Of a stretch of 64,000 nucleotides of DNA, positions 28,676 to 60,616 are shown one piece after another (within the stretch, counting starts at the first letter, position 1; each line of letters starts with the position of its first letter). The notes under the pieces were generated by a model. The model was not told where the DNA came from. It saw nothing but the letters and a program-made list of their open reading frames with translations, and searched no databases. The stretch spans positions 186,001-250,000 of the forward strand of contig JAQGEQ010000124.1 of the NCBI GenBank assembly GCA_034620365.1, given 5' to 3'. A program made the position numbers and the translations under genes. Origin of the DNA: Pegea sp. RAD2-039 (lineage: Eukaryota; Chordata; Thaliacea; Salpida; Salpidae).

Positions 28676-29650
28676 TTATTTTTTTCGACTTTTATCAACC
28701 ACAGCATATGTAGAGCTTATATTAACTAAACAATCAGTCGGTTGACCACCAATTGTTTTGTAGTTACTTGATCTTGGTTGACTATAAACTTGTTGATTGG
28801 ACGTAGAATGATCATGATGAGATGATTCTGTTGGATGTTGAATTTCAGTGTAAGCTGGCTCAATATTTTCAGCTGGAATATTAATGTTATCATAACCAGC
28901 ATCATCAACAACAAGCTCATTTGGTTGATTAGATTCTTTAATAGATGAATATTTCACTCTTTTTTCGTCAATCTTATTTTTCTTAAAAAGTTTGTATATG
29001 AGTACTCCAATAATCACCAACAAAAGAACAAATCCTAGTGAGGTAGCAATCATAAAATATGAGTCTGCTGATGATGACGTAACTGACAGTTGATCAGTTT
29101 TACCATTTGATTCAGTATATGAGTCACAGTTTGCAAATTTTGTTGTTTTAACAAGATCAGTTGTTGTTGGTGGTGTTGTTGTTGCTGCAGTTGTTGTTGT
29201 TGTTGGTGGAAACAGGTTGCTTTTGGAACACAAGAACGGAAGCTTAATAGTTTTAATGTTATTCTGAACATAACTAATTCGATGTACACCTCGTTTTTCT
29301 ATGAAAAACGTACTTTGATCTGGAATTGCATCCTTATAAAACAGTGATCCTTGCTCGCTCTTATTAAGTGATGTTCCATCACTCCAAGAACCAGTTTCAT
29401 TTGTTACTGAAAGTCCAATACGGTACAAATGGTAGTTTCTCTTTTGTTCTTCAGGTATACCATGAACGTCAGTTTCGTAGCATCCTTTTAAATGATCCAA
29501 AGTATCATTTAATCTCTTCTGATTGTTGATTGGAGCTAGCTGTTCACCAAACTGCTGACAAATTTTGGTAGAATCTTTCAAGTTCTTTTTTGTATCAACT
29601 ATTCTAACAACCAAGCCATCAGTCTGATAGAAATACTTACAAGGCTTCAT
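28676..29650 (-). CDS. CTLD receptor with ITAM-like tail, left-arm copy
   Basis: 324 residues, subfamily 2. CTLD about 1-143: Cys4, Cys31 (C-Q-Q-F-G), Cys57, Y-R-I-G-L 76-80, G-S-W-S-D-G-T 87-93, F-L-C-S-K 139-143. A Thr/Pro-rich stalk at 147-172 looks mucin-like. Membrane span about 200-219, then K-L-F-K-K-N-K. The tail has Y253-D-N-I and Y267-T-E-I separated by ten residues, an ITAM-like pair (immunoreceptor motif YxxI/L-x6-12-YxxI/L), followed by Y297-K-T-I and Y315-A-V-V. An activating immune-type receptor is the natural inference, unproven. It differs from its inverted copy at 37423 at residues 85, 191 and 227 only. A splice acceptor (AATTTGCAG in the mirrored copy) precedes a leader with an in-frame stop. 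Confidence 0.85.
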   Translation of the reverse strand: MKPCKYFYQTDGLVVRIVDTKKNLKDSTKICQQFGEQLAPINNQKRLNDTLDHLKGCYETDVHGIPEEQKRNYHLYRIGLSVTNETGSWSDGTSLNKSEQGSLFYKDAIPDQSTFFIEKRGVHRISYVQNNIKTIKLPFLCSKSNLFPPTTTTTAATTTPPTTTDLVKTTKFANCDSYTESNGKTDQLSVTSSSADSYFMIATSLGFVLLLVIIGVLIYKLFKKNKIDEKRVKYSSIKESNQPNELVVDDAGYDNINIPAENIEPAYTEIQHPTESSHHDHSTSNQQVYSQPRSSNYKTIGGQPTDCLVNISSTYAVVDKSRKK

Positions 29651-31085
29651 ATTGATGTATACTAAGCTTTATTTAACCTTTTTGATGCTTAAAACTCTGC
29701 AAATTAAAATAAGAAATAATTAAAAGATTGTGTGAAAAATGTTTGCTATCAATAAAATTAAAGAAATTAATTAAAACAAAACATTTTGTAAGATAAACAT
29801 TCACATTTTTCACAATCAAACATAATTTAAGTCATCTACTTTTCTTTCAACAAATAAGTTTCTGAAAACGTTTAAACGTTTAAAAACCAATTTTTTAAGT
29901 AATCGTTACTAAATAATACAAAAATAGAAACTATAAAAACCATTTATTTATAAAAGTTTTAAAATTTATTGTCGTTGATAGCCTTTATAGTTTACTAATT
30001 GTATTGTGATTATAATAAAAATAAATAAAGTCTTAAAACTAAAAACGTTAGTTATTAAGATATATAAGATATAATAAAATATATAATAATTATTCTAATA
30101 TAGATATTATGTAAGCTTATATCTTGGCAAAATATTTTCAATTAACTGAATAGCTTTTTAATTATTCAAGTAAGCAAGCTATCAGTCTTAATTTATATTA
30201 AGAAATCTTTATTTTGCTTTTCAGTTTTTCCCAAAATTTGTATTATTGAAGTTGACTATCTTTGCCAACAGAAACAATAGATTGAAATAATAATAAACAA
30301 ATTTATTAAAATTTTATAACTTTTACAACAATTATTTTCTAAATATTTCAGATAAAGTAAAAAAATTAATTAAAATACAATTGTTGTAATTTATTTCATT
30401 AAAAACAAGAATGCTATGGTGGCACAATCTCTTATCGTTATGAATAAGCTGCAAAAACATAAAATAAACCTGAAGTAAAACAAAGCATCAGATTTAAAGT
30501 TTATTACAAAACCTAAAATGTTTACCAATTTGAACATCGTCTAAGTAAAGAATGTAGAAAATCTATTTTCTAAAATTTCAGAATAATTTAGAAATTCTTA
30601 AACATTTTCTTGAAACAAATAATTTTAAGTATTTTTTAATAGGTGTCTTTAAAACTTGAATAAACCTCCAAGTGAAAATATTAATAAAATTTTAATTTAA
30701 TCAGTCATTTCGATAATAGTTCATCCATGTTAGATACATTTATTTACTATTAATAAGAATTATTTATGAAAAATTTTATTTATCATCACTAAATTTATTT
30801 CAGTTTTATATGTTTTTTTAAAGTCAGTAATCAATTGATTTTTTAATAATTTTCAAATGTACTTTATATCATTATTAAAATAAGTATTTTTGTAAATTTT
30901 GTTTATTTGGTTTCTTCTTAAAAGTTAATAAGTTTGTTTATTATTGTTTATTCAAATAAATAAAATTTATTTGTTGGTATTAAAACTAAATTAAAAGAAT
31001 ATTTCTATTGATAAGCTAAAATTTGTCAATTCAATTAGTAGTAACTGCACTTTTTTCAGCTTATCTTTACTTACAAAAATGTTTT
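29651..31085. other. Upstream spacer of CTLD gene, inner part of left arm
   Basis: AT-rich, mirrored at about 35985-37422. No gene seen. The shared 5' flank extends about 1.4 kb upstream of both gene copies, so any promoter near the gene is duplicated too. Confidence 0.4.
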
Positions 31086-31189
31086 TAAATTTAAATAAAT
31101 AAATAAAAAAGATTTAGTATTATTTAGAATCATTTTTAAAGATAAATATAAACATTAAAGTTGTAACTTTAAACAATGTTAAACTTATT

Positions 31190-31415
31190 TTGGTTCAAAT
31201 CCTAAAGATACTAGGTTTGATGTTGTTATTGTTGAAAAGCCTTGTTCTTTTAATAAAGAAAATGCTGCCTATATTTACTACAGTCATTAAGAAAACATAT
31301 AATTTTGTTTAAATTTTTTACTGAACAGTTTTTAATTTTTTGGGACCACATCATCAAACAATGACTTTTATTTCATCCAGTGATGTTCCATTGAGAAACT
31401 AGAAACATATGAAAT
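31190..31415 (-). pseudogene. Decayed CTLD gene fragment in the inverted-repeat spacer
   Basis: Plus-strand blocks match antisense DNA of the intact CTLD gene at 32490-33338. TTTGATGTTGTTATTGTTG near 31220 matches the stalk region next to F-L-C-S-K. CATCCAGTGATGTTCCAT near 31376 matches the W-S-D-G-T-S-L-D region. The blocks are in the correct order on the minus strand. No frame survives, so this is an older lost paralogue. Confidence 0.55.
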
Positions 31416-32489
31416 AAAGAAGAATCAGAAAATATAATTTGACTTTGAAGATAGTAAAATAAAGTAGTAAATTTATGAGTAACTTAAAATAAAAATAAAA
31501 GTATCCATAGAATAATATATGAATAATAAAATTTTATCACTAAATAATGAATAATAAACGTTTATCAGTTAAATAATTTTCAACAAAAATGTGTTAAAAT
31601 AATAGTAAAAATATAATATAGTAAAATTAGAAGTAAATCAAAAAAAGGTTCACTTTAAGACAACTTTACTTTATTTACTTCTAAATTCAAAGAAAGTCAT
31701 AAATTTAAATAAAAACAAAAAAGATAATTTTATTAAAAATTATTTGCCACCAAATAAAGATTTACCGGAAGTAAAAACCAAAAGATTTAAAAATAATTTA
31801 AATCAACATTGATAAAGATTCGATAAAAATATACAAGCTGATAATAAATACTATTTATAATTTCTAAGCATACAGTTTATAATAAATATTTTTTTTTTAA
31901 AACAGTTAATGCATAAAACCTTTTTGCTTTTCCGTATAGTATTTGAACTGCTTATTTATTACAAAACGTTTTTAGTAATCTTGTTATAATCAACTTCATT
32001 TTGAAAAGTAAATGGATTTTTAAACGGATCCAAAATCAATAAATAGTTTAGATTTATTCTTTCCTGAATATCATTTTGAAATTAAATTCTTGAAACAATT
32101 TGGCAGCTTAAAACAAACTTATAGAAAACTTTGTAAAAGCTAATAAAATAACAAAAATTATAAACTGAGCATTTTATTTTTGATATTTCACAAATTTCAG
32201 ATTAGAAGCTTGGCAGTTAATAAAACTACCGATAAATTTGACTAGTTAGCAAAATCACAAAATCAAAACTTCAATAAAAAAGTGGTTAGTACAATATTAC
32301 TAAAAATCTAGAAAACACAGAAACATTACTCTGCAAAATTCAACATTATAATTGATACATGACTCAAATATACCAATAGTCGTTTTACGATCAGTTGTAC
32401 TGGAATTATTTGTTGCTAGTAGATAGGAGTTAGATTAACTGTCTGTAAAACTTGAAGATAGATTCCTTGTTCTATAATAAAACTTTTTT

Positions 32490-33338
32490 TTAATTCTTAA
32501 TTGGAGCAAAGGCAACATAAACATCATCCATATTACTTATGGAGTTAGCAACTTCTTCCAGTTGATGAGGAATCTTATAGTAAATTGGTTCAGTATTTTT
32601 TACTGGATTATTGATGGTAACATAATCAGCATCATTCACAGCATCATTAGTTGTTTGTTTTAAATCCATAGCAACGTAACAATTATCTTCTTTCTTATTT
32701 TTCTTATTCTTCTTAAATAGTTTGTAGATGAGAAAGAAAATAATCAGCAACAATATAACCAATCCTATAGAGGAGCTAATCATTAGAGATAAACTAGTTG
32801 ATGATGTTGTTGCTGACATTTTGTCAATTCCACAATTTGTTCCATCTGTTGGTTCATGTGTTGAAGATATCAAATCTTTTGATGTTGTTATTGTTGGAAG
32901 TGGTTTGTTCTTGGAACATAAGAATGAAAGTTTATTATCATCAGAGATTTTGTTAGAAACCACGATTTTCTTTATTTTTTTATTCACATAAATTGCTTTC
33001 TGATCGTGTAAAGGTGTACCCTGAAGCAAGGAGTTTTGCTTATCAACATCCAGTGATGTTCCATCACTCCAAACACCAGTTCCATTCTTAACTGAAAAGC
33101 CAATCCGGTACGCGTGTCCTGATCTGTATCTTACGCCATATTTAATACCATGAACATCAGTCTTTAAGCAATTATCCAAATGATTCAAAGTATCATCGAA
33201 TCTCTTCTGATTGTTGATTGGAGCTAGCTGTTCACCAAATCGTTGACAAACTTTAGTGGAAGCCTTCAAGTTCTTCTGTGTATCAACTATTCGAACAAAC
33301 AAACCATCAGTTTCAAAATTATATTTACAAGGCTTCAT
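32490..33338 (-). CDS. CTLD receptor with ITAM-like tail (spacer copy)
   Basis: 282 residues from M-K-P-C at 33338. The frame is open upstream to 33488, but the matching paralogue at 59771 has a stop at the equivalent place and a splice acceptor (TTTATTTATAG) lies in between, so I choose 33338. CTLD with Cys4, Cys31, Cys57, Y-R-I-G-F, G-V-W-S-D-G-T and F-L-C-S-K near 140. Thr/Ser stalk with one extra Cys; membrane span about 186-205; then K-L-F-K-K-N-K-K-N-K-K. Tail with Y239-V-T-I, ten residues, Y253-Y-K-I (ITAM-like), and a final Y-V-A-F. Nearly the same protein as at 59771. Confidence 0.85.
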   Translation of the reverse strand: MKPCKYNFETDGLFVRIVDTQKNLKASTKVCQRFGEQLAPINNQKRFDDTLNHLDNCLKTDVHGIKYGVRYRSGHAYRIGFSVKNGTGVWSDGTSLDVDKQNSLLQGTPLHDQKAIYVNKKIKKIVVSNKISDDNKLSFLCSKNKPLPTITTSKDLISSTHEPTDGTNCGIDKMSATTSSTSLSLMISSSIGLVILLLIIFFLIYKLFKKNKKNKKEDNCYVAMDLKQTTNDAVNDADYVTINNPVKNTEPIYYKIPHQLEEVANSISNMDDVYVAFAPIKN

Positions 33339-34439
33339 AATGAAGTAAACAAAATTGTTTGACAGTTTACAAAACAAAACTCTATAAATAAATATTAAAT
33401 ACAAATAAAATTTTGTAAAAAAGTAATCCTGCGTTTCAAAACAAAACCAAAAAATTGCATGTAATTTTGTTTTTATTAGATAAAACAAAGTTTGTAAACT
33501 AAACTTCTGATAAACTTTTCAATAATATATTTTTCTTTGAGCTATCATACATTCGCTTTAATTTTACACATTTTAAAATATAAATTATAAAATAAATAAT
33601 CATTAAAATTAACAGTATTAGTTACTAAACTGTGTAACAGTTTAGCTAAATCTAAAATTTGAATAGTTTTAAGACATACTATGCATGATGGTGTAAATTT
33701 AGCTTTAATTTTTGTACTTTTAAGTAATGGCAGACTCAACAAATATTAGCGAAATTTAATAAATAAAGATATTCAAACTTCCATATAAGTAAAGTAATCT
33801 ATTATTCAATGAAACTATTTAGAGTTATTTGATTAAAACTTACAATTTATACAAGTTTTTATATAAACACAATTTTTTAATAACTTGAAATTCTGTTTGA
33901 AATTTTGTTCAGAAAATAAAAGTATTTTTTTAACTAGTAGAAAATATAAAACTAACAAAAATAATTATTAGTTTATTAGGTATTTTAATATAACGACCAT
34001 TTCAAAAAATTAATACAGTTTAAAATGTAACAAGTTAAAAATTAAGTCATTCTAAAAACTCAATTTAATATATATAAATATATAGTTATATCGATAAACT
34101 ATTGTTTTTTCAGATGCTAAAAAAGTTAGGTTTTACATAGAATATGAGCTTAAAAGATATTAACTGAGTAAAAAGTATAAAAATAATAAAATAATACCAT
34201 TAGTAAATTTTAAAAGACTATTCTAAATATTTTAAAAATCAATTTGTCTGTGAATACTAATAACTAGCAATCTGTTTTGAAAATGCAAAATGCTATATAA
34301 AAATATATAAAAAAATATTAAAATAAATTATGATATATCACAAACTTATATAATTTTAAACAAATATATTTCATAAAATTGAATTAAAATTGAAATAAGT
34401 AATTTTTCGAATTCAACTTTTATTTTTTCTCTACTTCTT

Positions 34440-34690
34440 TAACTAACAATGTCGTTTTCTTACTAACTTATATAATAAGTCAGTGTAATGAAAGCTGTGT
34501 AAGTAAAGTACTGAGAGTTGGCTAACAAAGATTATTTTGTTTTAAATCAGATTTCAATATAGTATTTGTAAGCAGATGAAAAGAAAAATATTTCCAAAAA
34601 TAGTTAATAACAACAATATATAAACAATAACAAGATAAATTTTGTTGTTCTAGCTTAAGCTTGTTTCATACTTGTTTTTAAAGCTAAGGT
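34440..34690 (-). pseudogene. GPCR-like TM1-TM2 fragment, broken (unit copy 2)
   Basis: Reverse complement of the segment at 58487-58714, with substitutions and small indels that break the frame. Only the L-L-T-I-F-G-N-I-F core is recognisable. Confidence 0.4.
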
Positions 34691-34697
34691 TTTTTAA

Positions 34698-35984: not shown

Positions 35985-37422
35985 CTAATAACATTTCTTT
36001 GAGTAAAAATAAGCTGAAAAAAGTGCAGTTAATATTAATTGAATTTACAAATTTTAGCTTATCGATAAAAATAATCTTTTAATTTAGTTTTACTACCAAC
36101 AAATAAATTTTATTTATTTGAATAAACAGTACTAAACAAACTTATTAACTTTTAAGAAGAAAACAAATAAACAAAATTTACAAAAATACTTATTTTAATA
36201 ATGATATAAAGTACATTTGAAAATTATTAAAAAATCAATTAATTACTGACTTTAAAAAAACATATAAAACTGAAATAAATTTAGTGATGATAAATAAATT
36301 TTTTCATAAATAAATCTTATTAATAGTAAATAAATGTATTTAACATGGATGAACTATTATCGAAATGACTGATTAAATTAAAATTTTATTAATATTTTCA
36401 CTTGGAGGTTTATTCAAGTTTTAAAGACACCTATTAAAAAATACTTAAAATTATTTGTTTCAAGAAAATGTTTAAGAATTTCTAAATTATTCTGAAATTT
36501 TTAAAAATAGATTTTCTACATTCTTTACTTAGACGATGTTCAAATTGGTAAACATTTTAGGTTTTGTAATAAACTTTAAATCTGATGTTTTGTTTTACTT
36601 CAGGTTTACTTTATGTTGTTGCAGCTTATTCATAACGATAAGAGATTGTGCCACCATAGCATTCTTGTTTTTATTGAAATAAATTACAACAATTGTATTT
36701 TAATTAATTTTTTTACTTTATCTGAAATATTTAGAAAATAATTGTTGTGAAAGTTATAAAATTTTAATAAATTTGTTTAATTTTATTTCAATCTATTGTT
36801 TCTGTTGGCAAAGATAGTCAACTTCAATAATATAAATTTTAGGAGAGACTGAAAAGCAAAATAAAGATTTCTTAATATAAATTAAGACTGATAGCTTGCT
36901 TACTTGAATAATTAAAAAGCTATTCAGTTAATTGAAAATATTTTGCCAAGATATAAGCTTACATAATATCTATATTAGAATAATTATTATATATTTTATT
37001 ATATCTTATATATCTTAATAACTAACGTTTTTAGTTTTAAGACTTTATTTATTTTTATTATAATCACAATACAATTAGTAAACTATAAAGGCTATCAACG
37101 ACAATAAATTTTAAAACTTTTATAAATAAATGGTTTTTATAGTTTCTATTTTTGTATTATTTAGTAACGATTACTTAAAAAATTGGTTTTTAAACGTTTA
37201 AACGTTTTCAGAAACTTATTTGTTGAAAGAAAAGTAGAAGACTTAAATTATGTTTGATTGTGAAAAATGTAAATGTTTATCTTACAGAATGTTTTGTTTT
37301 AATTAATTTCTTTAATTTTATTGATAGCAGACATTTTTCACACAATCTTTTAATTATTTCTTATTTTAATTTGCAGAGTTTTAAGCATCAAAAAGGTTAA
37401 ATAAAGCTTAGTATACATCAAT

Positions 37423-38397
37423 ATGAAGCCTTGTAAGTATTTCTATCAGACTGATGGCTTGGTTGTTAGAATAGTTGATACAAAAAAGAACTTGAAAGAT
37501 TCTACCAAAATTTGTCAGCAGTTTGGTGAACAGCTAGCTCCAATCAACAATCAGAAGAGATTAAATGATACTTTGGATCATTTAAAAGGATGCTACGAAA
37601 CTGACGTTCATGGTATACCTGAAGAACAAAAGAGAAACTACCATTTGTACCGTATTGGACTTTCAGTAACAAATGGAACTGGTTCTTGGAGTGATGGAAC
37701 ATCACTTAATAAGAGCGAGCAAGGATCACTGTTTTATAAGGATGCAATTCCAGATCAAAGTACGTTTTTTATAGAAAAACGAGGTGTACATCGAATTAGT
37801 TATGTTCAGAATAACATTAAAACTATTAAGCTTCCGTTCTTGTGTTCCAAAAGCAACCTGTTTCCACCAACAACAACAACAACTGCAGCAACAACAACAC
37901 CACCAACAACAACTGATCTTGTTAAAACAACAAAATTTGCAAACTGTGACTCATATACTGAATCAAATGGTAAAACTGATCAACTGTCAGTTGCATCATC
38001 ATCAGCAGACTCATATTTTATGATTGCTACCTCACTAGGATTTGTTCTTTTGTTGGTGATTATTGGAGTACTCATATACAAGCTTTTTAAGAAAAATAAG
38101 AGTGACGAAAAAAGAGTGAAATATTCATCTATTAAAGAATCTAATCAACCAAATGAGCTTGTTGTGGATGATGCTGGTTATGATAACATTAATATTCCAG
38201 CTGAAAATATTGAGCCAGCTTACACTGAAATTCAACATCCAACAGAATCATCTCATCATGATCATTCTACGTCCAATCAACAAGTTTATAGTCAACCAAG
38301 ATCAAGTAACTACAAAACAATTGGTGGTCAACCGACTGATTGTTTAGTTAATATAAGCTCTACATATGCTGTGGTTGATAAAAGTCGAAAAAAATAA
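37423..38397 (+). CDS. CTLD receptor with ITAM-like tail, right-arm copy
   Basis: 324 residues. Same domain layout as the gene at 28676: Cys4/31/57/141, W89, Thr-rich stalk, span 200-219, YDNI (253-256), YTEI (267-270), YKTI (297-300). It differs at three residues (G for E at 85, A for T at 191, S for I at 227). The change at 85 restores an N-G-T sequon shared with other paralogues. A splice acceptor (AATTTGCAG) ends at about 37376, and an in-frame TAA lies between it and the ATG. So the protein starts here, without a classical signal peptide. Confidence 0.85.
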   Translation: MKPCKYFYQTDGLVVRIVDTKKNLKDSTKICQQFGEQLAPINNQKRLNDTLDHLKGCYETDVHGIPEEQKRNYHLYRIGLSVTNGTGSWSDGTSLNKSEQGSLFYKDAIPDQSTFFIEKRGVHRISYVQNNIKTIKLPFLCSKSNLFPPTTTTTAATTTPPTTTDLVKTTKFANCDSYTESNGKTDQLSVASSSADSYFMIATSLGFVLLLVIIGVLIYKLFKKNKSDEKRVKYSSIKESNQPNELVVDDAGYDNINIPAENIEPAYTEIQHPTESSHHDHSTSNQQVYSQPRSSNYKTIGGQPTDCLVNISSTYAVVDKSRKK

Positions 38398-40819
38398 ATG
38401 TAAAAAGCAAGCAAGTTGAAAATTTCAAACATAAAAGTAAGATGTCAATTTGAAATTTTTAAATTTTCTAAATTTCTCAAACTAATTTTGTTTCTTATAC
38501 ATCAAGCCTAAGTATGAGAAGTAATTTTAAGCATTTTTTAGATAACTTTAATTTTGTTTTCTGGTGTGTTGAAGTGATAAAAATCTCTTATAATATCAAA
38601 CTCTTATTTGTTACCTTTATATAAAACGAGTTTTTGTTATTTCCTGTAATTGTTTGATGCAAATTAAAATTTTAATCATAATATTTGATGGTTTTATGTT
38701 TAGTTTTGTTGGTTGGGGTCTTTCATCAAGTTAATTTCAATTTGCAAATTCATTAAGAATCAAATTTACAAAAACTTGATCTTAATAAATGTTTTTTCTT
38801 ATTAATTGTAGAAACAATAGTTTAAAGAATGTTTCCGTTTAAGTTGTAAAATTCACTGAAGTAAATTTTAAAATAAGTTTAAAGTATTTTTTTTTCTTTA
38901 GAAGCAATAAATTAAAAAAAGTTATTTGATTTTGACTTTTAGTGTAAAATTTTAATATAACTTGATTTTTTATTCTTTTTGACTTGTAATTATTTCTTTT
39001 ATTTGCAAATAACATTTGTAAGATTGTTTTGTACTAACATTAAATATCTTATTCTGCATTCTTCATAACTTAGATGGTTACATTGTATTTTCAAACTATT
39101 TCTTATATCTAACAACTAAAGCAACAAAGTTTTTTGCTCAATATTTGAATTATGTAACGTCTTAAAACTATTAAAAGATTGTCTTAAAGAGGTTTTCGAT
39201 TTTTCGATCATAACGTTTACTTTTAAAAACTAATATTTACAGTATTTAAACTTATTTAAAGTATTTACAAATTAGAGTTGATACTTTAGTAAAAATAAAC
39301 AATTAAATTCTTTAAATATTTAATAATGTTAAATTCTAAGCAAAAATTAATTCTTATGAAAGCAATACAAATAGTAGAAAGTTTAAATAATCTGTTTTAT
39401 ATAATATTAATATATTTTAAAAATGTTATTTTATATATAAGTTTATGATTATTCTTAAATTTGTTGTTAAAGTTAAAGAATAAATCGAATCAAAAGAATT
39501 TTGCAGCTATAATTAAAATTTTAAACGAGTTAAGACATTTTAAGATAAAAATGATAAACTAAGAAACATTGACACAAGTAACAAGTAAATTTGTTTTTTA
39601 AAAAAGCTTAAAGTTTCACAAACAAAAATTAAATTGAAAAGATGGCTTCTAAAATATCATACAAGCCAAATTATATCTGTTCAGAAAGCTTACTGGCTTA
39701 GTTTTTGTTTTCAAAAGAAATTTACAAACGATAACGATGTAGTTCACCTAATTAGCTTTGAATGCTAATTTATTCATTTTTAATTTAGTCAATTTTTAAT
39801 TAACATTTCAAGTTAAAACTCTTATCAACGAACTGACTATTAAAAAGTTTTGTTATAAGTTATGGCATGTGAAACCGAATCAACTGATATATGCCCTAAA
39901 AACATTATTTTATTGTTATAATTACAAAAGATTCATGATAAAACCAACTTTCAAATCATAAAAGATTTCGTCTTTATTACAATGGTTCAGTTATTCATTT
40001 GTACTTTTATCATACTTTTCTTTAGTAATAAACTGACACTTAGAAAAAGTTATAAACTTAATTACTAAACTTGATGTAAGCCTAAGTTACTAGATAGTGA
40101 CTCTAATCTCCATAAGTAAGGATGAAGCATTCTTTTTTTCAGTGGAGTTATATGCAGCGGTTTTTCAAATCTTTGAGCTTGACATGAGATTTAAGATATT
40201 GCTTGCAAGACACGAGTTTTAAATTTTGTAAATCTAAATATTTTGACAAATTACAATTTAATTTTTTCTAAATTGACTTATTTATTTTTAGACTATGTAC
40301 CACCTAAAAAAGCAATTTAATTAAAATCAACTTCTTGTTAGTTTTCAATTTTAAAAGTTTAATTTTTAGATATCATTTACAAAAGAAAGATATTCAGCCA
40401 CCTTCTAAGTACAAACTATTTTTGTAATATCATTCAATTGTTAAATTTCAATCAAAAATCTTTTCATAAATTTATCTTTCTCTAAAATAATAATTTTATT
40501 AATAATATGAGAAATTACTTCCATACTTTTCTTTATTACATCTTAAAAAGTTTTTCAAAACTATTAATTTAAAATTGTTCTTAAGATTTGATATAAAATT
40601 TGAAGAGTCATACAGGTTTCGTATAATTTCTAGAAAAAAATATTTAAATTTCTTGAAACATGAATCAATTTGAATTTTATGTATTAATCTAATTTATTAT
40701 CAAAATAGATTTATAGAATACTTATATCAACATGAACTTTGAAAAATAATCTAGTCAAATTGATTATATATTTTTTAAAAAATTAAAGAAATTATTTCAT
40801 GTTAAATTTCGAAATAATA
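38398..40819. other. AT-rich spacer between convergent genes, right arm
   Basis: Mirror of 26261-28675. No gene seen. Confidence 0.4.
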
Positions 40820-41045
40820 TTTTAGTTGCTGTACAAGAAACAGGTGTTTGTTGCGTACATGCGCATTGATGTTGATTATAGTGGAAAGTATTGTAAGTTG
40901 AAGTCCACACTTTTAAGTCCACTGTTTTCTAACAAAGTTCATTGACTGGGCAAAGTTTAAGGAAATACGTTTTATGTCGGTAGCTGGCGGTAATATACCT
41001 TATAACTGACAACAAGGTGGGATTCGAAGTCATGCTTGAAAAGGT
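40820..41045 (+). mobile_element. Possible tRNA-related SINE fragment (right arm)
   Basis: Inverted counterpart of 26036-26260. Its B-box-like GGATTCGAAGTC is better preserved than in the left arm, which strengthens the tRNA-related reading a little. Confidence 0.35.
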
Positions 41046-41755
41046 TTAAAAAAAGGAATTAATTGTTTATTTAAAAGAAATTGCTTATTTACATTTCAGT
41101 GATTCTAAAACAATATTTTTCAAACTGATATTTGAAATATTAAAATTATTTTTTTATAGAATTTTGTAACTTTTTTAAGCTTTTATCAGTTTATTTTGTA
41201 AATAAACAAAATAATAGTTTAATTTATTTTCAATTTTTTAATTAGTATCAAAATGAAAATCTTCTATTAAGACAAGATTTTTTATTTTCAAAATATAAAA
41301 ATTAATTCACAAATATTAAAAAATGAACTCCTAAGTAGTAACTCCAAAATTTCAACCAAAACTAAATTATACAACCAACTTTCTGGTAACTGATTAAAAA
41401 AATAATAATAATTATTCAAAAGTTTTATTAATAGTTTCTTAAAATATACAAATACAACGATAAAAAATGTTATTTTTGATGAGATCTTATTCAAAGATTT
41501 GTCTTAAAAAAATGAAGAAAAATGTTTTAAATATTTTTATGTATTCTATAAAAAACTTTTTCTTGTTTAAACTAATGTTTACGAAAAATTTTCAGAATGA
41601 AAAGAGATATTTTTAAAACAACTAAAAATAGAATTCTATATAGATCTAAACCGAATATTATATGAAACGCTTTTACGATGGTATAAAATATGAAAAAAGA
41701 ATACTACTTTATTATTTTTATAGAAAAAAGAATTTAATTTTAATTTGTAAAATCT

Positions 41756-42712
41756 TTACAAATATTGTTCAGAGTATTCATTGCTACTTTTAAAACATGT
41801 AAACGATCTTTTAAACCCATTAAATGATAATAAGATTGAAACACAATTAACGAACAGAGTGATATTAAATAAAGAAGTTTCAATTGATTTAGTTATACCA
41901 GATGGTAAGATAAATTTGGTAATTACCACAACTACCACAAAAGAGAATAAACAAACAGACATAATGATAGTAGCTGTACGAATCATGTACTTCTGGTCAT
42001 CAGACTTCTTTAAAAGCTCACCTATTCCGTAAGTAGCTCTAGCAACTTGATTCAAGTTGTTCTGAACACGTAAAGGGTAAATATACAGACAAAACAAGAT
42101 TATATTTGATATTATAAAACCAATTACAGAGATATGAAATACTAACGCAGGCGCTTTTAGATTGTCATAAACACAACCAATTTTAGACATACTATATGAT
42201 CGAAATAAAAGTACATCTAAAGAAGATAATAAGCCACTTCCATTCAACAAAACTAGAAAGAAAATTGAAATAAATTTCCATAAGAGTGTTTTTAAATGCA
42301 GAAGTGTCGTTTCAGAGTATAATAAGCATTGTTTAAACCAAAGAAAATGAAGTGATGCAGAAATTGAAATTTGACATAATGAACTTGTAGCTATATATAC
42401 TATTCGGCATTTTTCATCACTATCTTCATTAATTGGGTTAAAATAACCAACTAAAGCAAGAATAATACTACTTATAATACGAAGACAAGTATTAAATGCG
42501 AGAAAAATCCCTAATCCAAGCTGAAACAGATTTTTTTTCTTTCGTGGCTGCTCTTTATGCTTAGCAATCACTTTTAGGCAATATTGACAAAACCAAAACA
42601 ACAAGAGTGATGTTAGAATTAGTAAGATAAAGTTTATACATTCGACCAAAATCCATAAACTGCTTTCATTGTCAAATGAAGATTGATTGAGATGATTCGT
42701 CTTGTTCTCCAT
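41756..42712 (-). CDS. Seven-transmembrane receptor-like protein, copy 2
   Basis: 318 residues, same length and architecture as the gene at 24411, including Cys102 and Cys180 and the TM7 N-G-F-K-R-S-F end. Start chosen at the ATG at 42712. It differs from copy 1 at 25 positions: 22, 23, 25, 26, 35, 36, 46 (TM1), 74 (TM2), seven between 114 and 122 (TM3), six between 151 and 158 (TM4), and 189, 198, 305, 312. TM6, TM7 and all the main loops are identical. Convergent with the CTLD gene at 37423. Confidence 0.7.
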   Translation of the reverse strand: MENKTNHLNQSSFDNESSLWILVECINFILLILTSLLLFWFCQYCLKVIAKHKEQPRKKKNLFQLGLGIFLAFNTCLRIISSIILALVGYFNPINEDSDEKCRIVYIATSSLCQISISASLHFLWFKQCLLYSETTLLHLKTLLWKFISIFFLVLLNGSGLLSSLDVLLFRSYSMSKIGCVYDNLKAPALVFHISVIGFIISNIILFCLYIYPLRVQNNLNQVARATYGIGELLKKSDDQKYMIRTATIIMSVCLFSFVVVVVITKFILPSGITKSIETSLFNITLFVNCVSILLSFNGFKRSFTCFKSSNEYSEQYL

Positions 42713-43135
42713 CAATAGCAGTTCTATTTGTAGATTAAAAGGTTGAAAAATTCTGTTGAAAATAAAGTTTAGTTTTCCAGATTTTGATATTTTGAACTTT
42801 CTAATAGGAAATTAAATGTTTATGCTGATAAAAATTGTTTATATAAGTATTGAAAATTAATAAACATTTTGATAATTTAAAGAAAAATTGTTTATTTAGC
42901 TGATATACAGTTTTAGGTAAAAAATATATTCTGAAAAATAATTTATTTCAATTCTTGGTTTGAATAATAACTAAACTAAATTAGAGCTATTAAAAAATTA
43001 TTACAACTAGTCAACTCTCTGTAAAATTGATCAAGTTTGAATACAAATAATTTAAATGATAAATAAAAACCCTAAAACTGTTTTTACTGTCAATAAAACT
43101 TTTTAAGTTAGATTTATTCCAAACCTTTAAAAAAA

Positions 43136-46970: not shown

Positions 46971-47711
46971 ATGAAGCTTTGTAAAGATGTTTTTGAGACA
47001 GATGGCTTGATTGTAAGAATAGTTGATGCTAAGAAGCGCTTAAAAGATTCTGTTGATTATTGTCAGCAGTTTGGTGAACAGCTAGCTCCAATCAACAATT
47101 GGAAGAGATTAAATGATACTTTGGATCATTTGGAAAACTGTTATGTTCGTATTGCTCATAATATTAAAGAACTCCATAATAGAAGTATTTTTTGTTACCG
47201 AATCGGTTTTCAAAATAACAACGGAACTGGTTCTTGGAGTGATGGAACCATAATTGAACCAAAAGAACAAACAGATTTGTTTTCTGGTGGTGAAGTTTCT
47301 GTAGATGGAAATATCTTTTACATTTCAAAAGAAAACTTTAAGGGAATTGAGAGTGACCCTTCTTATAATTTCATTTATCAATATTCATTTTTATGCTCCA
47401 AAAACAAACCAATGTCAACAATAACGAAATTTGATGATACAGCTCTATATGGCTTTTCAAGATTGCCTTTATTAACTGGTATTTTGATTGGAGTTGTTTT
47501 ATTATTGCTTTTAATTGGTTTCCTTGTTTATAAATTTGTAGAAAAGAATGAAAAAAATGTTTATAATGTTGTAATGAAACACAATCAACAAACTAAGTTA
47601 GAAGCTGATGAAAGTGAAGTTGTTGCTACAAATATATATGATGAAGATCATTATCTTATAAGCAATAAAGTGAGATTTGTAAAATCTCTGTTGATCAACG
47701 CGAGAAAGTGA
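46971..47711 (+). CDS. CTLD transmembrane protein
   Basis: 246 residues, subfamily 2. CTLD 1-144: M-K-L-C, C-Q-Q-F-G (Cys31), Cys57, an additional Cys75 just before Y-R-I-G-F, G-S-W-S-D-G-T 87-93, F-L-C-S-K 140-144. Short stalk, membrane span about 167-187, K-F-V-E-K-N-E-K. The tail of about 55 residues has I-Y-D-E-D-H-Y-L-I at about 222-230 and no ITAM-like pair. An in-frame stop upstream fixes the start. Confidence 0.8.
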   Translation: MKLCKDVFETDGLIVRIVDAKKRLKDSVDYCQQFGEQLAPINNWKRLNDTLDHLENCYVRIAHNIKELHNRSIFCYRIGFQNNNGTGSWSDGTIIEPKEQTDLFSGGEVSVDGNIFYISKENFKGIESDPSYNFIYQYSFLCSKNKPMSTITKFDDTALYGFSRLPLLTGILIGVVLLLLLIGFLVYKFVEKNEKNVYNVVMKHNQQTKLEADESEVVATNIYDEDHYLISNKVRFVKSLLINARK

Positions 47712-51033: not shown

Positions 51034-51903
51034 ATGGACACTTGTAAGTATCATTATGAGTCAGATGGCTTGCTTCTTCGGGTCGTCGATTCTAAAAAGA
51101 ATTGGAAGGATTCTGTTGATTATTGTCAGCAGTTTGGTGAAGAGCTAGCTCCGATCAATAATCAGAAGAGATTAAATGATACTTTGGATCATTTGGATAA
51201 TTGCTACAAGACTGATGCTCATGGTATTCGAACTTTTGAAGTTGAAAAACGAATGGAGAATAAGTTTAGAGTTGGGCTTAATTTCCAAAATGGAATTGGT
51301 TCTTGGAGTGATGGATCACCACTGGATGTTGATGAGCAAAAATCTTTGTTTGAAAATGGCGTACTTCCTTCATCCGATGGAAATACTTTTTTTATACAAA
51401 AAAATGAATTTCACGGAGTTCGATTTAAACCAACTTATAATGATGATTCTGATCTTCCATTTCTCTGCTCTAAGAGTAAACCAGCTCCTACAACTACAAC
51501 TGAGCCAGTATCAACAACTGAGTCTTTGAAGACTTTTGAAATAACAACTAGATATGAATCAGCAAATAGTGGAGCTAACATGTTATCGACAATAGCATTC
51601 TCACCAACTTTACTGTTTATTTTATCGTTAGGATTTGTTGTTTTGGTCGCAATTCTGCTATTTTTTGTTTTCAAGCTTTATGAGAAAAACAAGAAATACA
51701 AACAGGCCAAAAAGCATTTTGTTGCTATGGAACATGAAGCTATTAACCAGAAGCAATCTGAAGACAAGGATGGTTGCTATGTTACTGTTGATTTTAAAGC
51801 TGAACAACAATCACAATTATCTATTAAACCAGCAAATGAAAATCGCTGTTCGCTCATCATAGCTCCAGAAGAAGATCATCAAACATTCACAGATTCTTCT
51901 TAA
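51034..51903 (+). CDS. CTLD transmembrane protein
   Basis: 289 residues, subfamily 2. CTLD 1-147: M-D-T-C, C-Q-Q-F-G (Cys31), Cys57, F-R-V-G-L 78-82, G-S-W-S-D-G-S 89-95, F-L-C-S-K 143-147. Thr-rich stalk (150-172), membrane span about 192-213, K-L-Y-E-K-N-K-K. The tail has C-Y249-V-T-V, aligned with the first ITAM-like tyrosine of the 59771 group, but the second tyrosine is missing. A tail with a single motif may signal differently or not at all. Confidence 0.82.
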   Translation: MDTCKYHYESDGLLLRVVDSKKNWKDSVDYCQQFGEELAPINNQKRLNDTLDHLDNCYKTDAHGIRTFEVEKRMENKFRVGLNFQNGIGSWSDGSPLDVDEQKSLFENGVLPSSDGNTFFIQKNEFHGVRFKPTYNDDSDLPFLCSKSKPAPTTTTEPVSTTESLKTFEITTRYESANSGANMLSTIAFSPTLLFILSLGFVVLVAILLFFVFKLYEKNKKYKQAKKHFVAMEHEAINQKQSEDKDGCYVTVDFKAEQQSQLSIKPANENRCSLIIAPEEDHQTFTDSS

Positions 51904-52595: not shown

Positions 52596-52614
52596 TGGTT
52601 TTTCTCAGGAGTTT

Positions 52615-54610: not shown

Positions 54611-56218
54611 TCAGCTTCCAGTAAAGTCTAGAACTTCTTGTATGAATGTTCTGCTGTTATGAACAGTTGTTCCACCCAACACCACTTTTAAACCAACAGA
54701 ATTTGTTTCGTTAAAATTCTCAACGCAAGCAATCTCTTCATAAGTTGTTCCTCCAATCATAAACACGATGACGTCATTGGGTCGAGATGAAGTTGCCATG
54801 CCAACCGATGGATAGTCTACAGAGCGCAATTTATCTTCGGCCAATTTGTCAAGAATCCATTTTAGTTTTGGTTTGTGTTGTGTGTAAACATTTTCAACTC
54901 CATTTAGTTGAGTAAAAAGCCGTTTAGCAGCATGACGTAAATCGCGTTGTTGTGACGTCACCGCTGAGCGCGACGAGTCGTAACGCTTTAAAGCGTCGAC
55001 GATGACACGCGCGTTTGCGTAGTTGGATTTTTCAACGAAATCGTCACGTGACTGCGGATAGCGAAGCGCGTATAGTGCAGCCAACCGGAAAGCTTCATAT
55101 GACGTCATCTTTGGGTGACGAAATAGAGTTCGAAGTCGTTGTATGACGTCATTATGATCGGAATGTGTCACTAAATCTTGTTCTAATTCGGATATTTCTA
55201 ATAAATTATGCTTAGCAACCAATTTTGACATTTCGCTGACCAGCGTCACGTGCTTAGCAACCGTGCCTGACATTTTATTGAATTGTGGGTAATTTTCAAC
55301 GAAATTTTTCATATCGTCAATTGACTCAACAGCACGCGGTTTCATCTTCGCCGATTTTGCTTGAAAACTTTCCATCAGTTGCTTTATAGCTAAACCAATC
55401 TCACCAAAATTCCTCATCAAGTTTTCACGATAAAACTCATCATTCATCGTCGACAACACAAATTCTTCTCGAAGTAATGACGTCACTCGTCCATTTTTGA
55501 TACCAAACAACTCATGAGTCATCGCTTCATACGTCCATTGATTAAGTAAAGGAGTGATGACGTCATCACGTCGATCTAAGATCAGTAATAGCGTTGATGA
55601 CGTCAGAGAAGAAAATAAAGACGCTTCTCTATTAATCACGTGATTTATTGATTCAGCTAACCGCTTACAAGAATCTGATGTCACGTGATAACGGATTGTA
55701 GGGCGTTTGTTAATCGCTAAAATCGCGCTTATGACGCCATGAGTGCTTCTCGTTAAATTCTGCTGCCTCCATGTTTGGTTATAACAGCTGGTTGGAATGT
55801 TTAAAGTGAAATGGTATCGATCTAAAGGGTAGAAATCAGCAAAATATTCATTGATATCACAAACACATTCATGTTCATCACTTTCAGCCAATATCTTCAC
55901 ATCACTCTTAGTGATTGTATTACTAAAATAAAGATAATATTTTGAGAAACGAGGTCTTTTCAACTCATCTGATAAAATCTGAATATTTGTATTTGTTGGA
56001 CGAACAAACACTAGAGCTTTTACTTGCTGTACTATTTCGCTACCCATTGATTCGATACTTTCAAATAAATAAACTTCTTTTTGTAATATTTCAGATTGAG
56101 AGAACACCATACTAACAATACTGATGGTTTCAGAGTCCATTAAAAGAGCTTTCATACCAGGACCACTATTATCTATCATCTTTGTGATATAATTTTTAGT
56201 TGCTAGCATTACATTCAT
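54611..56218 (-). CDS. VPS45: Vacuolar protein sorting 45 (Sec1/Munc18 family)
   Basis: 535 residues in one exon. VPS45 binds syntaxin-type t-SNAREs (Tlg2/syntaxin-16) and controls SNARE assembly in endosome-to-trans-Golgi traffic. Hallmarks: N-terminal M-N-V-x-x-A-x-K-x-Y-I-x-K-M-I, S-G-P-G-M-K near 20, Q-S-E-I-L-Q-K-E-V-Y-L-F-E-S-I, a Y-F-S-N-x-I-x-K-S-D-V-K segment, I-L-D-R-R-D-D-x-I-T-P-L-L-N-Q-W-T-Y-x-A-M, K-M-S-G-T-V-x-K-H-V-T near 320, and C-terminal V-I-V-F-M-I-G-G-T-T-Y-E-E and L-G-G-T-T-V-H-N. I chose the Met at 56218 because it aligns with the family N-terminus; another in-frame Met lies at 56263. The gene is intron-free and contains several TGACGTCA sites within codons (for example near 55560 and 55590), which is unusual next to the intron-rich PEX13. 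Confidence 0.95.
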   Translation of the reverse strand: MNVMLATKNYITKMIDNSGPGMKALLMDSETISIVSMVFSQSEILQKEVYLFESIESMGSEIVQQVKALVFVRPTNTNIQILSDELKRPRFSKYYLYFSNTITKSDVKILAESDEHECVCDINEYFADFYPLDRYHFTLNIPTSCYNQTWRQQNLTRSTHGVISAILAINKRPTIRYHVTSDSCKRLAESINHVINREASLFSSLTSSTLLLILDRRDDVITPLLNQWTYEAMTHELFGIKNGRVTSLLREEFVLSTMNDEFYRENLMRNFGEIGLAIKQLMESFQAKSAKMKPRAVESIDDMKNFVENYPQFNKMSGTVAKHVTLVSEMSKLVAKHNLLEISELEQDLVTHSDHNDVIQRLRTLFRHPKMTSYEAFRLAALYALRYPQSRDDFVEKSNYANARVIVDALKRYDSSRSAVTSQQRDLRHAAKRLFTQLNGVENVYTQHKPKLKWILDKLAEDKLRSVDYPSVGMATSSRPNDVIVFMIGGTTYEEIACVENFNETNSVGLKVVLGGTTVHNSRTFIQEVLDFTGS

Positions 56219-56263
56219 GTTTGTAGATTGTGTTTGTGTCTCTGTTGAATAGAAAATATTCAT

Positions 56264-58274
56264 TAGTTCATCTCTTTTGATGTAAACATGATTTTTGATT
56301 CTGGGTTTCTTTATACAGGACAGAATATTTACAAAGAAAATAAGATTTGTTCAAATTCGATGTGATGAAAACCATTCAAAGTTTTTAATTAATCTTATAA
56401 ATGACAGAAAGTTGTGGGATCTCAAAAGATGTTCAAAGAGTCCACAGAAAATCTAAAGAAATCAGAAAATGTCCTGGAAGTCCGGAGCATGAGTAGAGAT
56501 CACTTTCAGCTATTAGCATGATTCTACAGAATGGTTGATAAGATTAGAAAATACTGAAGTAATCCAAAGAACAGGAAGCTTATAAGATGATTAGGGAGTA
56601 CAACTGTTCAGGTGGCTTACTGAATATAATCAGGGGACTCAGAGTATGTTTAGAGGATAAGAAAAGGTTTAAAGAAGCATACTTAGATGACTCAAAGATT
56701 TTGTTAATAAAAAGGATAGGCTCAGCAGAGTTATCAGCACCAAACATGAATAAAATGTTGAAATATGTTAGACTTTTTTAAGAGAAATAGAAGAAATAAA
56801 AGTTTATAATATATAAAGGGCAGTTTCAGAGGAGAACAGCTATGTGGGATGTGCCCTGAGTGATGATGTTATGAAAAACAAAACACATGCATAAGAAATA
56901 GAAGTAAAATGGAATAGAAAAAACCTTTATGGTTTCAAACACAATGTAATAAAGTAATAATTAAAGTTGTTTAATACATTAAAGTAATAATACAATGTAA
57001 TCAAGTTTAAGACTAAAGTCAAGCTAAAAATCTATTTTCATTAAAACAAAAATTTTAGTTATAAATTAAAACTTAAGATGGTTAAAACTAACAAGAATTT
57101 GCAATCAGATAAAATATGCAAATATTTAAAAGTAATTACAAATAAAAGGTTTTTTTTTAAATAGCAATTTTAAATAAAAGAAATCTTAAAAAAATTCTTT
57201 ATAAAAGAAAATATCTTAAGATTTATGTAAAGAATTAAACTTTGGAAGGTATAAGAAGATACACTAAAAAAACAAGTTAAAAAAAATACTTTTTATAAAA
57301 AATTGTTTTTATAATTGTTAAATCTTAACAACTATTAAGAATCTATTTAGAAAATAAAATGAAAAACTTCTATTTAAAAACAAATATATAAATAAACTTG
57401 AATAAGAGTTCAAAACAAGAAATATTTAATATAAAAATTTATGTAAAAAAAATGAAAATAAAAGAAATAAAACTTTAAAAAAATTATAATTTAATATTTT
57501 CAAAATAACCTTTAAAATAAAATTGGTTTAATTTAATTAGTTGATAAAATAAAAACAACCATTAGTTAATTATTAAAAATTTCAAAAACTTTATTTGCTT
57601 AAAAATCAGAATAAATTGAATTACTAAATGACTATTATATAAAAACTTTAAATTATTCTGTTTCAAAACAGTTTAATCTGCAAAAAAGGTAAATAATTAT
57701 TTCTAAAGTAATTATTGAACAGTGAATAAAAGAATAACTTATTTCATAAAATAAGCAAACGTTTTATTGTTAAATAAACATAGAAAAAAATTGATGCTAC
57801 TAAGCAAACCAATATAGAATTTTGTAAAAAAAAATACAAAACAATATCTAATAAACTACAACATAAATTTTTTTGAATAAAAACTAACAACAAAAGTACA
57901 GATTACAAACATCATATAAAACATTTCAGCAATATTAAGCATAAATTATTTGTAAATAAATGATTAAAATAAGACATTTTCACTCTAACAAACTTGACTT
58001 CAAAATATTATCAATTGGCAAAACTAAATATAAAAAAACAAAAGAAATAAATATAGATTAGCTTGCAATAGATCATAACTATAAAATTTTTCACAAATTA
58101 AAATTGAAACTATTTCTAACTTTATAAAATAAAATGAAAAACGAATAACAAATTACATTAAAACAATATAGATAAAAACTGAACAAACTGTAAGACTACT
58201 AACAAAATGGCTTTTGGCAGCTATTAATCTATCTATTTATTTATTACAATTATATATTTATACAACATCAGTTT
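56264..58274. other. Upstream region of VPS45 and AT-rich intergenic DNA
   Basis: The first 550 bp or so are richer in G+C and may hold the VPS45 promoter or untranslated exon; I cannot point to a specific element. From about 56880 on the sequence is very A-rich. No supported gene. Confidence 0.4.
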
Positions 58275-58486
58275 AAGTTATAAAATTCAAATTTCGCTAA
58301 GAAATTTGTTGAAATTTAAATAGTTTTTACAAAGCTTCTTTTTAAGTATTTTAAAGTTTAATTTTTGAATATCTTAAACAGAATTTAAACTTTTTATATT
58401 TAGAAGTATTTAAATTAGTTTTTACAAACAATTCCAATCTATATTTATTGTATTTGAAATGACTAAAAAATCTTAGCTTTAAAAGT

Positions 58487-58714
58487 ATGTATGAAACAAG
58501 TTTAAACTACAGCAATAAAATTTATCTTGTTATTGTTTATCAGTTGTTGCTGTTATTAACTATTTTTGGAAATATTTTTCTTTTTCATCTGCTTACAAAT
58601 ACTATATTGAAATCTGATTTTAAAAAAATAATCTTTATTAGCCAACTCTCAGTACTTTACTTACACAGCTTTCATTGCACTGACTTATTATATAAGTTAG
58701 TAAGAGAACAATGA
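58487..58714 (+). pseudogene. GPCR-like TM1-TM2 fragment (75 codons, open)
   Basis: A short open frame with two hydrophobic segments. The first ends L-L-L-L-L-T-I-F-G-N-I-F-L-F, the second is I-F-I-S-Q-L-S-V-L-Y-L. The G-N in the first span and the L-S in the second recall TM1 and TM2 of class A GPCRs (GN motif; LS next to the usual Asp). Nothing like TM3-TM7 follows, and the two other copies are broken, so I treat it as a relic. A first exon of a spliced gene is possible. Confidence 0.4.
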
Positions 58715-59770
58715 TGTGGTTATTCGAATAAATGATGAAAGTTATTTAAAGAAGTCGAAATAATTAAAGTTGGATTCTAGGAATTAAGTGTCTCAATTAT
58801 AAATCATGTATTTTGATTATTTTTGCTTAAAATTATTAAACTTTGTGAAAAATTTTTATTATTGATATATTATTCTCTATACGTTTGTTTTTATGTTGTT
58901 TGTTGTAAATGTACTAATTTATTTTATTATCTTCTACGTCAAACTATATTTTATTATTCTTTTATTTTTGTTTAATTCATATGTTTCTAGTTTCATATTT
59001 TTGTTGTAAAACTTGCTTTTTTTAGTATCTAAAAAATTAATTAAGTTATAATACCTCTTTCAATTTAAGTTTATAGAATATCTTACTTCTTAAATTGTGA
59101 CATTTCTTATAATTAAATTTAGAATGAGGAATCTATATTTACATTATTTATCTTCAAATAACTATTTCGAAATACTTAATAATAACAAACGATTATTTTA
59201 GTTAGTTTTATATTTTCTAGTGGTAAAAGCAGAATTTTTATTTTCTGAACTAAATTTCATACAATATTTTAAGTTATCAAAGTATTGTGTTGATGTAAAA
59301 ATTTGGAAAATTTGTATATTACTTACTTTATCTTTATACAAGTCTGGTTTTGAATTAAGTAGTTCTAATATTGGCTGATTCTTTGTTGATGTTTAAAAAT
59401 ACTGAACTCAAAGCTTACTGTACAAAAGCATTATACATAATTTGTCCTACAAGATTAAAGTTTGTTTTAGATTGTTTTTTACATTAAATACTAATACTTT
59501 GATTTTTTACTATTTACTTATTACCTAATTCGTATTTTAAGATCTGTAATGTTAAAGAAAAATATAAGTCTATAAAAAATGTTTTCATTAAAAAGTTTTT
59601 AATGACTTTAGATTGCAAACTTTGTTTTATCTAATGAAACAAAATTACTAAAAACTTTGTTGGTTTGTTTGAAACGCAGGATTACTTTTTTGCAAAATTT
59701 TATTTATATTTAATATTTATTAACAGAGTTTTGTTTTGTAAACTGTTAAAAAAACTTTGTTTACTTCATT

Positions 59771-60616
59771 ATGAAGCCTTGTAATTATTTTTTTGAAACT
59801 GATGGCTTGCTTGTTCGAATAGTTGATACACAGAAGAACTTGAAGGCTTCCACTAAAGTTTGTCAACGGTTTGGTGAACAGCTAGCTCCAATCAACAATC
59901 AGAAGAGATTAGATGATACTTTGAATCATTTGGATAATTGCTTAAAGACTGATGTTCATGGTGTATATGGCGTAAGATACAGATCAAGACACGCGTACCG
60001 GATTGACTTTTCAGTTAAGAATGGAACTGGTGTTTGGAGTGATGGAACATCACTGGATGTTGATGAGCAAAAATCCTTGTTTCAGGGTACACCTTTACAC
60101 GATCAGAAAGCAATTTATGTAAATAAAAAAATAAAGAAAATCGTGGTTTCTAACAAAATCTCTGATGATAATAAACTTCCATTCTTATGTTCCAAGAACA
60201 AACCACTTCCAACAATAACAACATCAACAGATTTGATATCTTCAACATATGAACCAACAGATGGAACAAATTGTGGAACTGACAAAATGTCAGCAACAAC
60301 ATCATCAACTAGTTTATCTCTAATGATTAGCTCCTCTATAGGATTGGTTATATTGTTGCTGATTATTTTCTTTCTCATCTACAAACTATTTAAGAAGAAT
60401 AAGAAAAATAAGAAGGAAGATAATTGTGACGTTGCTATGGATTTAAAACAAACAACTAATGATGCTGTGAATGATGCTGATTATCTTACCATCAATAATC
60501 CAGTAAAAAATATTGAACCAATTTACTATAAGATTCCTCATCAACTGGAAGAAGTTTCCAACTCCATAAGTAATATGGATGATGCTTATGTTGCCTTTGC
60601 TCCAATTAAGAATTAA
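59771..60616 (+). CDS. CTLD receptor with ITAM-like tail
   Basis: 281 residues, subfamily 2. CTLD 1-142: Cys4, Cys31 (C-Q-R-F-G), Cys57, Y-R-I-D-F at 76-80 (the usual Gly is Asp here), G-V-W-S-D-G-T 87-93, F-L-C-S-K 138-142. Stalk with Cys168; membrane span about 185-204; K-L-F-K-K-N-K-K-N-K-K. Tail: Y238-L-T-I, ten residues, Y252-Y-K-I (ITAM-like), then Y273-V-A-F. A splice acceptor (TTATTAACAG) lies 44 bases upstream, and an in-frame TAA between it and the ATG excludes an in-exon signal peptide. Confidence 0.85.
   Translation: MKPCNYFFETDGLLVRIVDTQKNLKASTKVCQRFGEQLAPINNQKRLDDTLNHLDNCLKTDVHGVYGVRYRSRHAYRIDFSVKNGTGVWSDGTSLDVDEQKSLFQGTPLHDQKAIYVNKKIKKIVVSNKISDDNKLPFLCSKNKPLPTITTSTDLISSTYEPTDGTNCGTDKMSATTSSTSLSLMISSSIGLVILLLIIFFLIYKLFKKNKKNKKEDNCDVAMDLKQTTNDAVNDADYLTINNPVKNIEPIYYKIPHQLEEVSNSISNMDDAYVAFAPIKN

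Follow-up and report, generated by a model that had tools for sequence, protein, structure and literature searches.

Receptors of the vertebrate natural killer (NK) complex that carry a C-type lectin-like domain (CTLD), such as NKR-P1, CLEC-2 and Dectin-1, are type II proteins with an N-terminal tail, signaling through half of an immunoreceptor tyrosine-based activation motif (ITAM) or through coupling to adaptors. Among invertebrates, several receptors with tyrosine motifs in their own tails have been described. Drosophila Draper has a YxxI-x11-YxxL two-tyrosine motif that binds Shark (PMC13148388), Shark and Src42A act in its signaling (PMC5138034), and the inhibitory counterpart of the motif (ITIM) in Draper-II recruits Corkscrew (PMC4503800). 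The oyster transmembrane CTLD receptors CgCLec-HTM and CgCLec-TM1 combine a hemITAM with Syk and ERK signaling (PMC12842671, PMC13027682), oyster CgIgIT2 carries a classic ITAM (PMC11999971), and the locus-clustered receptors Botryllus FcoR and Hydractinia Alr have ITIM-, hemITAM- or ITAM-type tails (PMC12065747). On the kinase side, enzymes in which ankyrin repeats separate two SH2 domains are reported from Hydra (HTK16) and Drosophila (PMC9486129). Here we describe a cluster of CTLD receptor genes in a stretch of 64,000 nucleotides (hereafter the window) from the salp Pegea sp. RAD2-039, namely positions 186001-250000 of contig JAQGEQ010000124.1 (C107), in a genome of 105.7 Mb in 387 contigs.

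The motif discussed below is real and non-random, and the family is one of fast-evolving CTLD receptors. The interpretation we favor, with its chances of holding and of failing about equal, is that a Draper-type ITAM-like module is present in a minority of a fast-duplicating CTLD receptor family, alongside ITIM-like and motif-less relatives.

Paired tyrosine motifs in the tails of a CTLD receptor family

A first-pass annotation of the window had reported four intact receptor genes, and their open reading frames (ORFs) are indeed present, at 28676 and 32490 on the minus strand and at 37423 and 59771 on the plus strand; only its longer version of the 32490 ORF, which begins at an upstream TTG, gives way to one starting with the ATG at 33338. 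As it had stated, each ORF encodes a single hydrophobic span, the tail contains YDNI-x10-YTEI or Y[VL]TI-x10-YYKI, and an acidic residue occupies the -3 position of both tyrosines in all four genes. The tails of 28676 and 37423 further contain YSSI, YKTI and a C-terminal YAVV, which had been overlooked. The four genes were rejected as independent examples: 28676 and 37423 sit in opposite arms of a palindrome, a 1.4-kb inverted duplication of 93% identity accounts for 32490 and 59771, and hence the four are two recent duplicate pairs representing two lineages, not four. The palindrome, whose spacer holds a receptor gene, may be an assembly error.

Searching the whole genome with the 37423 protein returned 137 matches, counted as about 60 close gene-size loci mostly on contigs C107, C200, C247 and C254, which bears out the clustered multigene family proposed earlier; distant relatives lie on C100 and elsewhere. 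From 50 loci, five of which re-cover window genes, together with the window itself, we obtained 59 ORFs, 53 of them distinct, with the distant C100 relatives outside this set. These receptors would share a plan comprising a CTLD head without the usual calcium- and sugar-binding motifs, a Thr/Ser-rich stalk, one transmembrane (TM) helix and a tail with a variable assortment of tyrosine motifs. In agreement with the original assignment of the head, the predicted structure of 28676 adopts a CTLD fold (residues 1-145 of 324, with a helix at 198-233). The close family falls below the Pfam Lectin_C cut-off (13.1-18.5 bits versus 22.6, where bits are shown), with Lectin_C matches at E-values up to 1 in four of the eight members of A2, and a comparison of the family profile with PDB sequences gave a TM segment as its best, likewise weak match (E 0.098), CTLDs appearing as weak matches from E 0.7. 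None of the 53 ORFs contains EPN, QPD or WND, the motifs that mark the sugar-binding CTLD subset. Pairwise ratios of nonsynonymous to synonymous rates (dN/dS) for the CTLD span 0.28-2.02, and 14 of the 20 pairs fall within 0.5-0.85.

The pattern Yxx[LI]-x6-12-Yxx[LIV] is found in 9/53 ORFs (28676, 37423, L021 and L022; 32490 and 59771; L023, L074 and L077), compared to a mean of 1.5 and a maximum of 7 in 2000 tail shuffles, a test which, like the other shuffles below, overstates independence because the tails share ancestry. Seven of these have I/L at both ends, and nine are reached when V is allowed in the second. Among 27 less redundant tails a broader pattern is seen in 8 versus 1.8, a level attained in 2/1000 shuffles, and four more ORFs (L026, L031, L036 and L039) display a YxxI-x9-YYxF pair at another place in the tail. 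By class, 22 of the 53 tails carry a half motif with an acid at -3, nine the pair and 17 no YxxI/L/V, and nine are shorter than 45 residues; an ITIM-like motif at the C-terminus is present in 16, is exactly YAVV in 10 and accompanies the pair in four. The mixture of tail types on one head family that had been proposed is thus seen across the 53 ORFs, and reading of the window tails confirmed the one-motif tail of 51034 (CYVTV) and the motif-poor tails of 46971 and 19461.

It is conceivable that such motifs are instead YxxPhi sorting signals of the AP-2 type serving ligand uptake, the x10 pair being two endocytic signals in a conserved linker: YSSI, YDNI, YTEI, YKTI and YAVV all match YxxPhi, and Yxx[ILVMF] is enriched overall (89 versus 53.9). 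However, the enrichment is far stronger for the half motif with an acid at -3, which is a feature of the ITAM consensus and not of AP-2 signals (40 versus 8.0 shuffled, or five-fold, and 24 versus 4.6 in the 27 less redundant tails). Both halves carry this acid in the three clades with the pair, and D/E stands three residues before the first tyrosine position in 20/23 aligned tails, the tyrosine itself being kept in 16/23. We regard the sorting interpretation as unlikely.

Descent and conservation of the paired block

The two pairs of motifs were first thought to match in spacing while the surrounding residues differ. This does not hold: the 18-residue block is homologous, 37423 and 59771 agreeing at 10/18 of its residues, and many paralogues share its linker; spacing conserved despite differing neighbors was therefore rejected. 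A linker block score, which omits both tyrosines and takes as its seed 12 blocks selected by eye from the same tails (so that seed rows rank high by construction), exceeds the 99% shuffle level in 29/53 ORFs. Among the 24 high scores (>=18), 13 ORFs have both tyrosines, two only the second and nine neither, these last showing D at the first position and Q, S, T or F at the second; the five weak scores (8-14) comprise four ORFs with neither and one with only the second. The linker therefore outlives the tyrosines.

In a tree of the ectodomains from 50/53 ORFs and two outgroups, the ITAM pairs form three clades within one 14-row group (support 93/86), and accordingly the pair may be of single origin. 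An alignment of 23/53 tails, hand-chosen as alignable and with the internal repeats of L060 and L061 removed, points to loss of both tyrosines in the L066/L037/L078 clade, of the second in L072/L073 and 51034, and of the first in L033/L034. Fitch counts over 22 tail rows and 76 columns gave a mean of 5.9 changes per column, versus 3 for the -3 acid, 3 for the first tyrosine (Y1), 2 for its +3 Ile and 4 for the second tyrosine (Y2). The columns of the C-terminal YAVVD show 4, 3, 3, 3 and 2 changes (18-19 rows). Of five-column sets drawn at random, 0.95% match the core mean, or 0.03% for the distal tail, column p values here and below being indicative as the core columns were chosen after the motif was known.

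Candidate signaling partners and the weighing of alternatives

SH2 matches occur at 33 places in the genome, ten regions of which were examined. The Syk-like tandem-SH2 kinase that the first-pass annotation had suggested looking for has a counterpart in a SHARK-type gene (L055), with a predicted order of SH2, ankyrin, SH2 and tyrosine kinase assembled from separate frames; 6/9 frames have Pfam SH2, ankyrin or kinase matches and three have none. Its kinase exon matches best a single EGFR chain, in two stretches counted together, and next SYK and ZAP-70. Further genes, named by eye, are presumably SHP2-, RasGAP-, PLCgamma-, Csk-, Crk-, Nck- and Tec-like, along with two Src-like ones.

In the Draper-type interpretation, the tails of the three related clades (9/53 ORFs) keep a complete two-tyrosine module, [D/E]xxYxxI-x10-Yxx[I/V], in which the second tyrosine has E at -3. 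Clustering by ligand would cause a Src-family kinase to phosphorylate both tyrosines, and the doubly phosphorylated pair would recruit SHARK via its two SH2 domains, in the manner of the YxxI-x11-YxxL motif of Draper. Paralogues without the pair, or with YAVV binding a SHP2/Corkscrew-type phosphatase, might tune or oppose the signal. Of this scheme, the motifs and their enrichment, the CTLD fold of the model, the gene cluster and the SHARK-type gene come from the data, whereas we infer the position of the receptors at the surface, their phosphorylation and binding of SH2 domains, and their ligand and cell type.

Several results weigh against this interpretation. The classical ITAM spacing of x6-8 is found in 0/53 ORFs, and 44/53 tails are not ITAMs. 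The four ITAM tails ending in the ITIM-like YAVV (4/9) are all of one lineage; the activating and non-activating forms envisaged at the outset are supported as mixed tails and not as a clean split. The second SH2 exon of L055, taken alone, resembles SHP2 most, then ABL and then SYK. The linker is clearly retained in the nine ORFs without either tyrosine, and the ectodomain tree requires two changes between both and neither tyrosine (three with the C/Y rows as a third state), which together with the single 14-row group means that retention and loss were few events. The +3 residue after Y2, with 6 changes, lies at the median and is not conserved, while the two tyrosines alone reach p 0.025 (2.5% of draws). 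All Y1 codons are TAT (16/16), and hence there is no synonymous change in support of selection. Tail dN/dS ranges over 0.1-3.2 in 18 defined pairs and stands at 0.90-1.24 in five cross-lineage pairs (37423 versus L021, L022, 59771 and L025; L021 versus L023). Lastly, none of the ORFs shows a signal peptide, the maximal 12-residue hydropathy within the first 45 residues being 1.3 in the 47/53 ORFs that fit a common Met start.

Some of these observations fit a reading of the tyrosines as an inherited relic, with the block of one ancestral tail drifting free of selection on the pair: tail dN/dS is near 1 across lineages, one or both tyrosines were lost several times, the linker outlasts them and Y1 is uniform in codon. 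Yet the core columns change less than the rest of the tail, and Y2 is kept while its codon varies (TAC in 11 and TAT in 4 of 15 Y rows); we give this reading the same low probability as the sorting one. Purifying selection on the two tyrosines, an estimate of which had been proposed, is in our reading of the alignment probably weak to moderate on the first half motif and less on the second. Docking of single phosphotyrosines (Nck/Crk via YxxP, SHP2 via YAVV) without a tandem-SH2 kinase step is improbable: YxxP is enriched (31 versus 14.1, with seven in 14303), the YAVVD end ranks with the best-conserved columns of the tail (p 0.001), the ITIM pattern is enriched in all tails (25 versus 12.3) and SHP2-, Nck- and Crk-like exons were named by eye, but the ITIM enrichment is weak in the less redundant tails (13 versus 7.2; 35/1000 shuffles), the Grb2-type YxN is not enriched (16 versus 22.0), and two half-ITAMs kept at a fixed distance in three clades are left unexplained.

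With respect to topology, the 47 ORFs show no second TM-like span, and the charge difference places the tail inside in 43 of them. A signal peptide on an upstream exon was ruled out for 20/47, in which no AG separates the in-frame stop from the ATG; the other 27 may have an upstream coding exon. We suggest that the receptors would insert by a reverse signal-anchor with a cytoplasmic tail; in principle, the head could stay inside the cell. Many family ORFs, in the window and at the other loci sampled, have a pyrimidine-rich AG just 5' of the ATG, often by 20-50 nt and by 1 nt in 14303, a pattern that fits a putative intron in the 5' untranslated region or a spliced leader.

Features of the window and comparison with known systems

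The window is AT-rich, with a G+C content of 19-43% per 2 kb, and its features are collected below.

Receptor genes, motif blocks and duplicated segments of the window
Feature	Positions	Strand	Remarks
CTLD-TM gene with ITAM-like pair, copy A1	28676..29650	-	324 aa ORF; modelled as CTLD; 99% identical to 37423
YDNI-x10-YTEI block of copy A1	28841..28894	-	position reckoned within ORF
CTLD-TM gene with ITAM-like pair, copy B1	32490..33338	-	282 aa from ATG at 33338
YVTI-x10-YYKI block of copy B1	32571..32624	-	position reckoned within ORF
CTLD-TM gene with ITAM-like pair, copy A2	37423..38397	+	324 aa ORF; 99% identical to modelled A1
YDNI-x10-YTEI block of copy A2	38179..38232	+	position reckoned within ORF
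C-terminal ITIM-like YAVV of copy A2	38365..38376	+	STYAVV fits [ILVS]xYxx[ILV]; position reckoned within ORF
CTLD-TM gene with ITAM-like pair, copy B2	59771..60616	+	281 aa ORF
YLTI-x10-YYKI block of copy B2	60482..60535	+	position reckoned within ORF
Paralogue with single YxxV motif (CYVTV)	51034..51903	+	ORF and tail read
Paralogue, motif-poor tail	46971..47711	+	ORF and tail read
Paralogue, short tail without YxxI/L/V	19461..20132	+	ORF and tail read
Paralogue, tail with seven YxxP, mostly in 60-bp tandem repeat	14303..15607	+	
Broken paralogue, two frames; TTG at relatives' start-ATG position	23070..23984	+	
Distant CTLD-TM gene	9615..10286	+	Lectin_C 24.7 bits, above cut-off 22.6
Distant CTLD-like TM gene, minisatellite-coded tail	2156..4201	+	Lectin_C weak, E 0.073; 42/126-bp array
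Palindrome left arm	23995..31087	.	97-98% identical to reversed 35986-43128
Palindrome right arm	35986..43128	.	97-98% identical to left arm, about 7 kb

Repeats shape several tails: six of the seven YxxP motifs of 14303 are of the FYEEP/FYEDP/VYEEP type, the tails of L060 and L061 are expanded by repeats of a EYVVENEQLAEIDEVND-like unit, and a minisatellite of 42/126 bp around TGACGTCA (3138-5887) codes for much of the 2156 tail. This 8-mer has 124 copies in the window versus 0.34 expected by a rough composition estimate, and is also found in the kinase-gene loci (L052-L055 and L057). Other genes include a putative multi-span membrane protein present twice (24402-25367 and 41756-42715), the former copy of which matched no Pfam family above cut-off, a Sec1-family gene in one open frame (54611-56263; 375.4 bits) that we take by eye to be VPS45, and presumably, likewise by eye, a LINE-like reverse transcriptase ORF (7141-8550, minus strand).

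As far as the available parts of the open-licence literature go, no CTLD family of invertebrates was found to carry a two-tyrosine ITAM in the receptor tail itself. Oyster CgCLec-HTM resembles the salp receptors as an invertebrate CTLD receptor with a C-terminal TM; however, the CgCLec receptors appear as single genes with a half motif, whereas here there is a clustered family, with two half motifs in some members and ITIM-like ends as well in some. Oyster CgIgIT2 differs in having five immunoglobulin (Ig) domains and no CTLD. Botryllus FcoR differs in its Ig and sushi heads (PMC12065747). The heads of Hydractinia Alr are Ig-like, and the role of both FcoR and Alr is in allorecognition. In NK-complex receptors the tail and TM precede the CTLD, whereas here the TM follows it; the original label of 'NK-receptor-like' thus stands for the CTLD fold and clustering only, as the head-TM order is reversed and no ORF shows a signal peptide. 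A bolder reading is an independently arisen NK-complex-like system. Its roughly 60 clustered CTLD receptors, part of them with a complete ITAM, YxxP arrays or an ITIM-like end on the tail, would be coupled to SHARK and SHP2 and come to the cell surface although they have no signal peptide, and palindromic duplication along with changes of the tail would give rise to forms that are activating, mixed or silent; we consider this doubtful as a whole, if somewhat less so than the sorting and relic readings. The likeness to Drosophila Draper-I and Draper-II lies in a two-tyrosine motif in the receptor's own tail and an ITIM variant, here with a SHARK-type gene and SHP2- and Src-like genes named by eye; Draper differs in its EGF-type head, its isoforms of one gene and its x11 spacing, as against CTLD heads, about 60 loci and x10. 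The tails found on this one head family (ITAM, half, lost, ITIM-like and YxxP) offer a concrete testable set, and if the pair signals, the activating/inhibitory cluster design of the NK type would have been reached again from CTLDs with a Draper-type kinase module.

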